Assembly: GCA_950295325.1 (NCBI GenBank)
Contig: OX485804.1
Span: 46,376,001 to 46,440,000, forward strand
From: Polytrichum commune
Taxonomy: Eukaryota; Streptophyta; Polytrichopsida; Polytrichales; Polytrichaceae
Direction of reading: 5' to 3'
Length of the DNA: 64,000 bases
Shown here: in pieces, positions 43,318 to 58,493 of the stretch
Layout of the letters: every line of letters begins with the position of its first letter
How positions within the stretch are numbered: position 1 is the stretch's first letter
Position numbers and translations under genes: made by a program
Notes under the pieces: model-generated
What the model saw: the letters and a program-made list of their open reading frames with translations, nothing else
The model's database searches: none
Told to the model about the DNA's origin: nothing

Positions 43318-43365
43318 GAGCGACGCTATTTTGCGAGCAGTGAGCGGTGAGCGGTGAGCGATAAG
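43318..43365 (+). repeat. Left terminal inverted repeat of the MULE
   Basis: GAGCGACGCTATTTTGCGAG, then AGTGAGC and two GGTGAGC heptamers, then GATAAG. The right end has one fewer heptamer. Stacked heptamers in a MULE end are candidate transposase-binding sites, which is inference. Confidence 0.85.
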
Positions 43366-44019
43366 TTTTTCTTTTTTTAGTTAAAATAATAGTTTAATGT
43401 GCAGGGTATATTAAAAAAATGAATGTTTTGCAAATATATTTCCAATTATAGTAAATTTTAGGACCTATGCCCGTGGAAAATTCCTCCACAGTGATCGTTG
43501 CAAAGTTGTTTTTGGGATGTTTTTAGGGTTTAGGGAGTCGAAATCAATATTGACAAACATTGTGGAGTATTTCTATGCAGCAAAATTAAATTACATTGGC
43601 ATCTTTTGAGATCCGCGAGATTGAAGATGAATTCAAGAAAAGTGGAGATATCAGACACCTAAGGTTTCTAGACTATCAGAAAGAAAATTAAATGAAGCTT
43701 CGAGGTCAACAAAAACGTTGATACATCAAATACCTCGAAGTGGCCCTTTTAATCTCACTAGTTCATGATTAAAACAGAGGTTGCATACATACGTTTCTCT
43801 GAGAAGACAATGAACTCAACATCTTTACACAAGATTTTGTGTAATGAAGGAAACAGTAATTGATGAGTATTAAAACTAAACCATTCAAATTCAATACTGT
43901 AGCGCTTTTAAAGAGTGACGGTATAAAAATAATGCACTTGGTAGTGGCCCTTTCCGTCTCACTACCTCAATTTCATTGATGTGATTGAAATGAAATTACA
44001 AGAGTACTTCATCCAAAGC

Positions 44020-47000
44020 CTAAGAGGTTGTCTGGGTCAACAATCCACTCTGAAGGATTTGCTTGACCTCATTAAAGCTAAAACTAGCAGCATGAATAAA
44101 AGTATCAGAATCAGGATCAAGTCCACAAATTATCGTAAACACATAGTATAGGTGCTTACAATTGGCCCACTGACCGCGCTTTCCAAGTGCCTTGGTTGCC
44201 ATTTCCTTGAAATTGTGACAAGTGCACACCGGAAGCTGAGAAATAGTCAAGTGGTACTGGTGGATATTGGGAGGAGAACCAGAATCCAAGGTAACAATAC
44301 AACCAAGAGCTGGGGCAGGGACCATGCTAATGTTGCGAATGCAAGTTTTTAACGTGAGAGCAGAGGCACAGTTGTTGGCGTGACGTGTGGAAGGGGCCTT
44401 ACTCATGCGACGGATATTCTTCCCGGACCTGCGCTTGGGGAACTCATCCGGAGATGCCGGAGTAATATACGAAGTCAAGTCCACGTGGGAGAGGTTGTCT
44501 TGGAACAATCGTTTTGGAGAGATTTCTTGTCGTTGAGGAAGGCGAAATCCAACAATTTCCAATTGGAGGATCTCCTTGCGGGAAAGGTTTATCCCCATCT
44601 TGACAGGCCAAGTCTCAGGGACTTCAGGCCTTGATATAACCCACTTCCTGCGAGTTCCTTTAACACACCTTTCAATATCATCGTTACAAAAGAAGAATTG
44701 CAAGAGTTCTTGCTTATTCTTTCGGTAATTGGTCATCATCCCGGTGTACATTGGCGCAGCGGTATTCTTCCCGTCTTGAACAATACGGGCCACACACTTC
44801 TTCTTTGTCATCGCTTGTATAGCAAAGCAAGCCTTTGCAGACGTCTTAGGAAGACGTGCGATGTGCCACTTACTTTCGTCACAAGCGGATTTTTGAACTG
44901 TTGTAACATGCTGCAAAGGAGAAAGTGGGGTGACATCACTTACTCGAGTATTGCCGTTCGATTGCTGCGGCGCAATTGGAGTTGCAAACGTTTCAGGAAA
45001 TTCTGAATCAACGGTTGGTAAGGCCGTTTGAGAGTTTTTGATGGAAGACCGCGTTTGCACTCGGGGACGAGAGATGGAGATCTTGTCAGGTCGGTGAGAG
45101 TCAAGTTCCGAACCTGGAGGAAGGTCAGCCTTCCGTTTCAAGGATAGGAAGACTTCTTCACCTTCTAAGTGTGGCGTGCGGATGCAAAACTCTTGCGCTC
45201 CGGGCATTCTAGTCATTGCTTCGTGAAGGGACTTGGTGTTGCCGGTAATCTCCGAAGAACGTTGTGCGGCACGTAACTTCAGCTCTTCCTTGGACGGGCC
45301 AGTACCAGCACGATCTCCTTTTAAGTACTGGTAGTACGAGACACATTGCATAAATGCGCGCACGTAGTCATCAACTGTTGCAACATATAGATCCTTACCA
45401 CGGTGGCCGGATTGTTGGAGCCACTTATTGTGCACGGTCTCGGCCAAATTGCACGAAGGCATTTCAGCCAACTCAACTTCGTTCAAGTCCTATGGAGAAG
45501 GAGTTTAGAAAGAATCGATTAGGAAACATGTAGGAGACGATTGACGATTGCTTTATCAATGGATGGGTACACGTTCAATGAGCGAAGAACTTACCAATTG
45601 CATGAAGCCACCCCATTGGCGGTAGCGAAAATGCCAAAAAGCAAGCCAGAGGTCGAGTCGGGATATGGCATCCTCAGATGCGGCACCGGACGAAAGCCAT
45701 CACGCGCGAATGGTAAGGTAGCGCATTTCAGCTTCAGAAATGGTCTTGGCGTTCTTGTATTGCTTGCAAAGCAATCGGTGCTGATCTTGAAGGTCGAGTC
45801 TAATGTAGGCCTTTATGTGCTTCTCGAGGGACTGAGTCCAATGAAAGAGACACGTTTTCTCCTTGTTTTCCATGGGCATAGATGCATCTCCGTTTCCATA
45901 GACAATACGGATAGCATTCCAATTGGCTTGAGCGCTATCTGCCATAAACCCTTTGAAGTTTGGTTGAGAAACGTTGTGGCGAGCCATAACAGCGTTGAGG
46001 TTTTTCCAAACCACAATTTGAGCAGCGGTATCCTCGGACTGCATGTCGCAGACGGCAATGGTCATTACTTGACAAAAGGTGGCATCATAAACATGGCACG
46101 CCATTGTAGTCCAACTTTGCACACGCTTAACATGGTTAAACATGAGCCAGGCGTTTTCGAGGTCTCCACCGGCTTGCATCCGTTTCACGAGGTCGACTCC
46201 ACTACCCGGTCCTACCTCAGACATTTTGAACACAAAGACCTTGTCAGTTTCCGCTCTTTGGCCTGGAAACTTGTTCTCCTGGACATAAGGCCAGTTGCTT
46301 GACCCACGAAGTTTGGTGATGCTATCAATAACCCCAAATATACGGATGTATTTGAAACCCGATACAGTATTACGGATGCTAGGCAAAGTAAGGTGCTTAC
46401 AACGATCAAACAAAAGCAGGAGGTCATCTACAGAGAGGGATTTTGGTTGTGAACCCTCAGGCGCTAGGAGCATGTCTCCAACTAAGTCTTTGCTAGCTTC
46501 CAAAACTAAAGCGGAGTTGGTAGCTGTAGGAGTGCTTTGAATTTGTTCACTCAGGAAGCTGGTAGTATGCTCAATGGAGTCGCGATAATCACTAGTTTTG
46601 ACCGGATGGGCATGGATTCCGAAGTGAATACAAGCCCGAGACATAGATTCTGATCCAACTACATAATAAATCCTAGCCGGACACAAGGCAACACAACTCG
46701 GCGAAACCTTACATATGGAACAAACGATGGTTGAATCCTTGGGATGCACGGTACCACACTCAAAGGGCAAAGATGAGTTGCCCTCCCACTCCGTTTCATT
46801 AATAGGTGTGGTGCGGTGTACTCGAGTAAGGAACTCACAGTCAACATTATCGCACCGCAAATGACCTAAATAAGAAGAGGTTCGAAAAGTGAGACCAAAA
46901 TCGTTAGAGATGTTGGACGTGATAGTTCGGGTCCAGGCGTGGCCATCGAAACGTTTGTCCATACTATGAAGCTGTTTCGCTACAGTCTGCCTAGCGTGAC

Positions 47001-57534: not shown

Positions 57535-57800
57535 GCCATGGTGAGGCCTGAAGGAGAAATCGGATGTTCTCATGAAGCTCTTTGTGCATGGATTATCTCC
57601 TCTAGATGGTATTGTCGCCGACCTAACCGCTTCCACAGGTACCTCATACCCACTTCTCCTTCTTTTTTTACTTTTAATTTTCATACCATGTTTCATGTCC
57701 TAATTTATCCCATTTTTCCAGGAGCTACTATTCGCGCAGCCCGTGCATGTAATCGCCACATTCTGGCTTTAGAGAGCGACTCTATGCTCTTTTTTGAAGT
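57535..57800 (+). other. Methyltransferase motif X/I region with TGA stop
   Basis: PW-stop-GLKEKSDVLMKLFVH, then ADLTASTG, a phase-1 intron inside the glycine codon, then ATIRAARACNRHILALESD. It corresponds to the K-P...DPFxGxGTTxxAA...GRxxIGIE segment of beta-class enzymes. The Phe-x-Gly-x-Gly of motif I is replaced by TASTG. Confidence 0.55.
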
Positions 57801-58453
57801 CCTTGAACCCCTGGCAGTTCCACCTCCAAATGCTTCGACTTTCTCTACTGCAGGCGACCTGAGTGATGATGACGAGGCCATTCCAGATGCCCTTTTGCAC
57901 GATATATGTGAGTAAGTCCACGCCTTCGTTGGTTGATATTGTTTTCTATTTATCTCTTTCTTGTAATCCATCCTTTGTCCATCCCTAAATCTTGCTCTGA
58001 ACATGGCAGTTTGACAAATTCAGGGAGACCACTACGAACTCCACCTTCAACTTGGTACTTTCCGTCGCCGCCCCCAAGTCCTTGTGGCTTACCTGTATAT
58101 GCTGAAGCCATGGCCTTGGCGTATGCCCATGGTAGCTCTGGGAATTCGGCATCCTTCTTCACTCCTAAGAATCATGTTGACCCTCGAATTCTACGCTACT
58201 TTGATTTAGAAGCAGTGTTGAGCCCTCTATGTAGCAGTGATTGAAGTAATGACGACCTTCTTGATCATACAAAGTATCTTGAGCTCCCAGGAATTGTCAT
58301 GGATATAGGCCCCTTTAATAAAAATTGTGTTCTAAAACTTTCAAGTTTTCAGTGAAAACTGCGGTCATAGAGCTCAAAAGTTCTCAAATTTTTGCTCTAG
58401 TCCTGATTATAGGGCTTTATTTTCAATACAAAATTTCTAAAAACTGTAGAAGT

Positions 58454-58493
58454 TATCGCTCACCGCTCACCGCTCACAAAATAGCATTCCTCA
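58454..58493 (-). repeat. Right terminal inverted repeat of the MULE
   Basis: The reverse complement reads GAGGAATGCTATTTTGTGAG, then C and two GGTGAGC heptamers, then GATAAC. It matches the left end at 43318 apart from one heptamer and a few substitutions. Confidence 0.85.

Follow-up and report, generated by a model that had tools for sequence, protein, structure and literature searches.

A two-gene DNA transposon lineage of the moss Polytrichum commune that pairs a transposase with a likely accessory protein of ParB-like and methyltransferase-like make-up

A 64-kb stretch of the Polytrichum commune genome (C2:46376001-46440000, hereafter the window) contains a 15,175-bp element, at positions 43318-58492, which is a dead member of a lineage of DNA transposons with two genes. 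In this lineage both genes are mobilized within shared inverted repeats, and 10-bp target site duplications (TSDs) are made. One gene encodes a transposase, and the other encodes a spliced protein of about 1050 residues with an N-terminal ParB fold and C-terminal homology to beta-class methyltransferases. The window copy is regarded as dead because in-frame stops break both genes. The second protein is likely an accessory factor that the element needs for its success, and not cargo; a two-gene transposon lineage with an accessory second protein is the explanation that we hold with good confidence. Two-gene Mutator-like transposons are already a known kind, and what appears to be new is the unusual second gene.

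The element and its copies

An exact TSD of 10 bp and terminal inverted repeats (TIRs) were found in all three elements with both ends read (the window element, a copy on C3 and a copy of a divergent lineage, B). This TSD length fits the 8-11 bp of Mutator-like elements (MULEs). At the ends of the window element the outermost bases agree (GAGCGACGCTATTTTGCGAGC on the left, GAGGAATGCTATTTTGTGAGC on the right), and positions 43340-43380 pair with 58437-58477 at 88%. An earlier note on this DNA had reported inverted repeats and an exact 10-bp duplication, and both are present, ATTTGGCAAG being found on the two sides. The same note had placed the element at 43318-58493; the start stands, and the right end is one base less, at 58492. 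Short tandem arrays of the heptamer GTGAGCG, variable in copy number, occupy both ends, and lineage B has them too. In the block of intergenic tandem repeats (Table 1), a unit of the GCCGAGGCACCCCAGCCGGTGCCGGCCGA type occurs six times.

The host genome (408 Mb in 64 contigs, seven of them of 42-78 Mb) was searched for copies of both genes. The transposase search used the 842-codon frame and scored 54 of 2287 candidates, so that the counts are lower bounds; for the second gene, 44 of 3337 candidates were scored and at least 146 exon matches were merged by hand into loci. Among the transposase matches listed were 19 copies at 92-100% identity, the one in the window included, and 35 at 61-66%. 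The second-gene matches listed formed 34 loci, of which 22 were close (lineage A), 9 belonged to lineage B (mostly 45-68% by exon) and 3 to lineage C (about 39-54%). The earlier note had suggested checking whether the two genes co-occur, and in the host genome the transposase copies do repeatedly adjoin the second gene: 15 of the 19 listed close copies have a close second gene in divergent orientation no more than 20 kb away, with gaps of 4.1 to 16.4 kb between the paired genes. When 19 sites were placed at random 2000 times, the mean was 0.0125 pairings and the maximum was 1. Counted from the other side, a close transposase lies within 20 kb of 15 of the 22 listed close second-gene loci.

The ends of the copy on C3 (C3:13618233-13632073, 13,841 bp) are the same, an exact TSD of its own (CATAGATAGC) flanks it, and it carries the two genes in divergent orientation. 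Its second gene (L059:3811-7795, plus strand, corresponding to C3:13627810-13631794) is open across all 1052 codons. The outer parts of this copy and of the window element are 96-98% identical, while the central segment (window positions from about 47.58 to 53.99 kb) is unalignable; it includes the first 217 codons of the open frame of the window transposase, to which the C3 transposase has no homology. Between the window and C3 copies, nonsynonymous divergence (dN) was 0.023 and synonymous divergence (dS) 0.050 over 1047 codons.

The same pair was found in more distant elements. The lineage B copy (C6:36477434-36489934, 12,501 bp) has an exact TSD (CTTAATTTCC), a TIR core (GCTATCTTG/A) and heptamers, and carries both genes, divergent and both broken. 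Compared with the window lineage, its transposase is 46.6% identical (1119 codons) and its second gene 57% (1013 codons). Over the same codons the proportions of nonsynonymous and synonymous differences (pN, pS) were 0.378 and 0.806 for the transposase and 0.304 and 0.780 for the second gene. Since pS is saturated in both genes and pN is lower, both were long maintained as proteins before these copies decayed. In lineage C (C6:41.49 Mb), exons 1-4 of the second gene accompany a divergent transposase exon 2 at 48%. One of the 35 listed copies of the 61-66% transposase subfamily was inspected by sequence (C6:7.766 Mb, 11.8 kb upstream). The first 5 kb showed nothing, and a divergent second gene starts 5.4 kb from the transposase; it has the same make-up with all domains, two stops and an exon 1 that is 33-45% identical. 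Because this gene was unlisted, the second-gene listing misses such divergent partners. The positions and phases of the second-gene introns agree among lineages A, B, C and a fourth lineage for most comparable introns, and the fourth lineage has additional introns. Between paired lineages the second protein is now shared at only about 35-60%.

The transposase

The transposase gene, on the minus strand of the left arm, consists of an 842-codon open frame, one intron and a 489-codon second exon. A single in-frame TGA at 45700-45702 interrupts the window copy, and the first ATG that agrees with the relatives, of which the protein database held 11, is at 48123. The N-terminus (48123-47200, minus strand) has two similar units 153 codons apart, AFIRAD..V.VTFP.G..GYA.VS, without a Pfam match; the near-identical relative P0001 carries both units, and the other relatives read seem to carry one.

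The designation MULE/SWIM transposase in the earlier note agrees with the left-arm minus-strand gene, the TSD length, the TIRs and the motif order, and lacks profile confirmation for both MULE and SWIM. Since no profile confirmed it, the MULE label is provisional and depends on the length of the TSD, the TIRs and the order of motifs. By eye, a CxC...CxH block can be seen in the transposases of the window, the lineage B copy and P0002, and Pfam gave no SWIM match for the transposase that contains it. We consider it rather improbable that the element represents a separate, unnamed DDE-type superfamily that shares 10-bp TSDs and the CxC...CxH block with MULEs, a classification that would be compatible with the two-gene interpretation. 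It is favored by several searches: the pieces of the window transposase matched no Pfam family at E 1, six database relatives returned no transposase family and just two weak unrelated rows, the 142 PF10551 matches that were listed genome-wide did not include the window transposase, and an hhalign comparison with MULE domains from this genome had a probability of 0.1. Nonetheless, the weak hhalign alignment falls on the corresponding block (D..A/N..C..H), and the TIRs and the 10-bp TSD are within the ranges given for MULEs in the available text of PMC6446971.

The second gene

The plus-strand gene on the right arm has 8 exons and 1052 codons with 5 in-frame stops, and all seven introns are GT...AG. 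The exon and codon counts and the divergent orientation bear out its earlier description as full-length, intron-containing and paired with the transposase, with the amendment that the window copy is broken by stops. When exon 1 alone was the query, the protein database held 257 relatives; among the 120 listed, the sole named one was the hypothetical protein P0064 of the moss Ceratodon purpureus. A comparison of the whole protein with 5.8 billion proteins, using at most 100 words and candidates of similar length only, gave nothing useful, and searches of PHROGs, NCBIfam and PDB sequences gave nothing, or one weak unrelated row in two of them. An endogenous viral origin was weighed as well. Viral contigs contained no relative of the transposase, exon 1 had none in viral or prokaryotic contigs at the sensitivity used, and the methyltransferase part retrieved 3 phage records at E 3.

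The ParB-like domain predicted by the earlier note was supported by the finding of a ParB/sulfiredoxin fold when relatives of the N-terminal domain were tested. The comparison structures were those of bacterial ParB/Noc proteins (7bm8, 6sdk and 7bnr), which share this fold and differ in sequence (10-16% identity). Every residue of the motif DGNHR occurs in at least 90% of 80 sequences, and the motif may be equivalent to the active-site arginine box of ParB (GERR/GxHR type); what we take to be the GERR box of ParB reads GNHR here. No parS-type DNA-binding domain was identified in the second protein.

The C-terminal part was compared with beta-class methyltransferases by hhalign, and the probability was 94.6 and then 97.6, with E values for the single comparison of 6.9e-8 and then 3.3e-12, the latter over 190 columns, in the motif order IV...X-I. 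Among the controls, 40 shuffles each reached at most 2.4 and 1.8, three other protein regions at most 0.5, and the reversed sequence 0.2. In Pfam, PF01555 was the only match of the second protein, and a weak one (E 0.0034, below the family cut-off). The catalytic motif (D/N/S)PP(Y/F/W) is replaced by EYPDG, DYPDG and DLPEG in three lineages, and the FxGxG that binds S-adenosylmethionine (SAM) by TASTG or STSTG. All six phage methylases used as a yardstick retain the tyrosine of DPPY and GSG in motif I. Of the methyltransferase proposed in the earlier note, the beta-class homology was therefore retained and the ordinary catalytic motifs were not; a methyltransferase fold with altered catalytic motifs is a better description.

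Possible roles of the second protein

The recurrence of the pair in divergent lineages, the conserved introns and the 15 of 19 close copies agree with the view, already put forward in the earlier note, of a long-standing accessory gene. These data support a long-standing partner gene, which fits far better than random capture. Several observations weigh against an accessory role or limit it. Four of the 19 listed close transposase copies have no divergent partner (one has a same-strand lineage C gene 4.2 kb off, and for three no second gene is listed up to 20 kb away), and seven of the 22 listed close second-gene loci lack a close transposase over the same distance; truncation may be the cause of such unpartnered loci. 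Of the 35 listed copies at 61-66%, 2 have a listed second gene no more than 20 kb away, in neither case divergent. Lineage C showed no methyltransferase part, transposase first exon or ends in the 10 kb read. No heptamer array was present in the 11.8 kb around the C6:7.766 Mb copy, and therefore the heptamer cannot be a universal target; the heptamers may equally be transposase sites. In addition, the two genes disagree about kinship. The lineage A transposase is closest to the 61-66% subfamily and 50.5% identical to lineage B in the core, whereas the lineage A second gene is closest to lineage B (59.7%, versus 39.6% to the fourth lineage, in exons 1-2), as judged from the identities among four sequences for each gene, where P0002 represents transposase exon 2 of the subfamily. 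Therefore, partners were exchanged or rates differ, and either exchange between elements or unequal rates could be behind the conflict. As to the methyltransferase part, two of the six yardstick phage methylases also deviate from DPPY (DPDY and DLPY), and structure prediction yielded no model (predicted local distance difference test score, pLDDT, of 33), so that no claim about the fold is drawn from it.

Known systems offer partial parallels. In the available text of PMC5735166 and PMC10398659, VANC proteins bind motifs in the tandem repeats of the VANDAL family to which they belong, and they erase silencing marks. The moss element resembles Arabidopsis VANDAL/VANC in combining a Mutator-like element, a non-transposase gene and internal tandem repeats; the likeness is by role only, and while VANC acts on its own family, the role of the moss gene is proposed by analogy. 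By description, VANC also differs, as the available portions of PMC5735166, PMC13317346, PMC6446971 and PMC10398659 do not speak of ParB or methyltransferase domains in it. VANDALs are described as non-TIR elements in the accessible part of PMC13317346, and a table in PMC6446971 gives them TIRs of 46-174 bp and 9-bp TSDs. According to the available text of PMC6446971, maize MuDR/mudrB and Mutyl/mutB are likewise two-gene Mutator elements whose second protein is accessory or thought to be so, Hiun is another element with a second gene, and MULEs with a SET or ovarian-tumour gene are Mutator-type elements that bear chromatin- or protein-modification enzyme domains; that text ascribes neither a ParB nor a methyltransferase domain to mudrB or mutB, and the SET and ovarian-tumour domains are different ones. 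Prokaryotic and phage ParB-methylase fusions such as Bce_0392 (PMC5512222, as far as available) combine a ParB fold with a domain of the adenine-methylase type. The moss protein differs from them in its length of about 1050 residues, long middle part, introns, altered motifs and location in a eukaryotic transposon. The claim of the earlier note that no plant element of this kind had been described agrees with searches of the open-licence PMC literature, in which no listed title or abstract opening spoke of such an element, and the words ParB and methyltransferase do not occur in the available text of a 2026 review on how plant elements capture genes (PMC13317346).

We tentatively suggest, by analogy with these systems, that the second protein may bind the repeats of its own element and thereby provide a shield against silencing or assist in assembly of the transposition complex. 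It would be a sequence-directed DNA binder that loads onto repeats, candidate sites being the GTGAGCG arrays in the TIRs or the intergenic tandem repeats. The ParB domain would act as a nucleotide-controlled grip, and the altered methyltransferase fold might read or hold DNA without ordinary catalysis. The outcome would be protection from host silencing or transposition-complex assembly, a role like that of VANC or mudrB. A more specific and more speculative version is that a ParB-type nucleotide-switched clamp and a repurposed methyltransferase fold recognize the element and keep it open against silencing. If this were true, a prokaryote-style partition/modification protein would have become an anti-silencing factor of a eukaryotic transposon.

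Other functions were considered. That the protein is a nicking or nucleotide-driven transposition helper, whose ParB domain would cut or clamp the terminal DNA, appears unlikely; a Bacillus cereus ParB-methylase fusion is reported to have nonspecific nicking activity (available text of PMC5512222) and DGNHR is strongly conserved, but a common fold proves no activity, and this one is found in binders, a kinase and sulfiredoxins. It is quite doubtful that the protein has amino-methyltransferase activity (N4-cytosine or N6-adenine) and thereby marks element DNA for the host or the transposase. The homology to beta-class enzymes extends over the whole domain in the correct motif order, the motifs are altered alike across the three lineages that could be read and not by random erosion, and the bryophyte Marchantia has N4-methylcytosine (4mC) in sperm, made by its own DNA methyltransferases (PMC8566409, in the part available); however, all three lineages have an acid in place of the motif IV aromatic, and motif I no longer contains FxGxG. 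That a host gene was captured recently or at random as a Pack-MULE-like passenger is highly improbable, and this reading was rejected because of the co-occurrence and the shared introns: gene capture is frequent in MULEs (PMC13317346, available text) and the intergenic gap varies, but the divergent arrangement recurs in close copies and divergent lineages and the second gene is full-length and no fragment.

An accessory role for the second protein would be of wider interest. Second genes are scarce among Mutator-type elements and little understood, VANC being one with a known anti-silencing role, and a partner with ParB and methyltransferase folds, kept with a transposase through deep divergence, is a new testable example. 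The pairing connects DNA-handling modules of the phage and plasmid type to eukaryotic transposition. Binding of the protein to its own repeats, use of cytidine triphosphate (CTP) or SAM and changes in the methylation of the element become testable questions.

Features of the window

Table 1. Coordinates of the element, its genes and related relics in the window.
Feature	Position	Strand	Remarks
Left TSD copy	43308..43317	.	ATTTGGCAAG; identical to 58493-58502
Left TIR	43318..43380	+	GAGCGACGCTATTTTGCGAGC, then tandem heptamer GTGAGCG; first 28 bases same in C3 copy
Transposase gene	44020..48228	-	Open frame 48228-45700, intron 45490-45594, second exon 45489-44020
Intergenic tandem repeats	51249..53278	.	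117-bp x 3.2, 116-bp x 2.2, C/T-rich arrays; inside middle segment unalignable to C3 copy
Second gene, exon 1	54304..54869	+	ParB-like domain; VWDGNHC (VWDGNHR in relatives); in-frame TAA
Second gene, exon 2	54965..55166	+	Boundary kept in relatives
Second gene, exon 3	55272..55688	+	In-frame TAG
Second gene, exon 4	55820..56755	+	Two in-frame stops; no known domain found
Second gene, exon 5	56902..57249	+	First half of methyltransferase fold; motif IV position is EYPDG
Second gene, exon 6	57356..57638	+	Methyltransferase fold, motif X/I region; DLTASTG; in-frame TGA
Second gene, exon 7	57722..57907	+	Methyltransferase fold, remainder of motif I and region after
Second gene, exon 8 and stop	58024..58244	+	
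Right TIR and heptamer array	58437..58492	-	Starts GAGGAATGCTATTTTGTGAGC
Right TSD copy	58493..58502	.	ATTTGGCAAG; identical to left copy
Decayed relic of related transposase	40599..42121	+	With stops; tblastn pieces 33-44%, best E 6e-24
Decayed relic of exon 1 of related second gene	4465..4986	+	99 alignment rows from 120 relatives

The transposase relic sits 1.2 kb beyond the left end of the element. The exon 1 relic is about 38 kb from the element, and its best four rows are 30-32% identical. An SPL-type host gene occupies about 31163-38500 on the plus strand, with an SBP domain at 31163-31966 (Pfam E 1.7e-18) and ankyrin repeats at 36682-37185. Long tandem arrays at 6512-7242 and 10454-11295 have units near 59 and 123 bp, both with TGAGGCAYATGCC.

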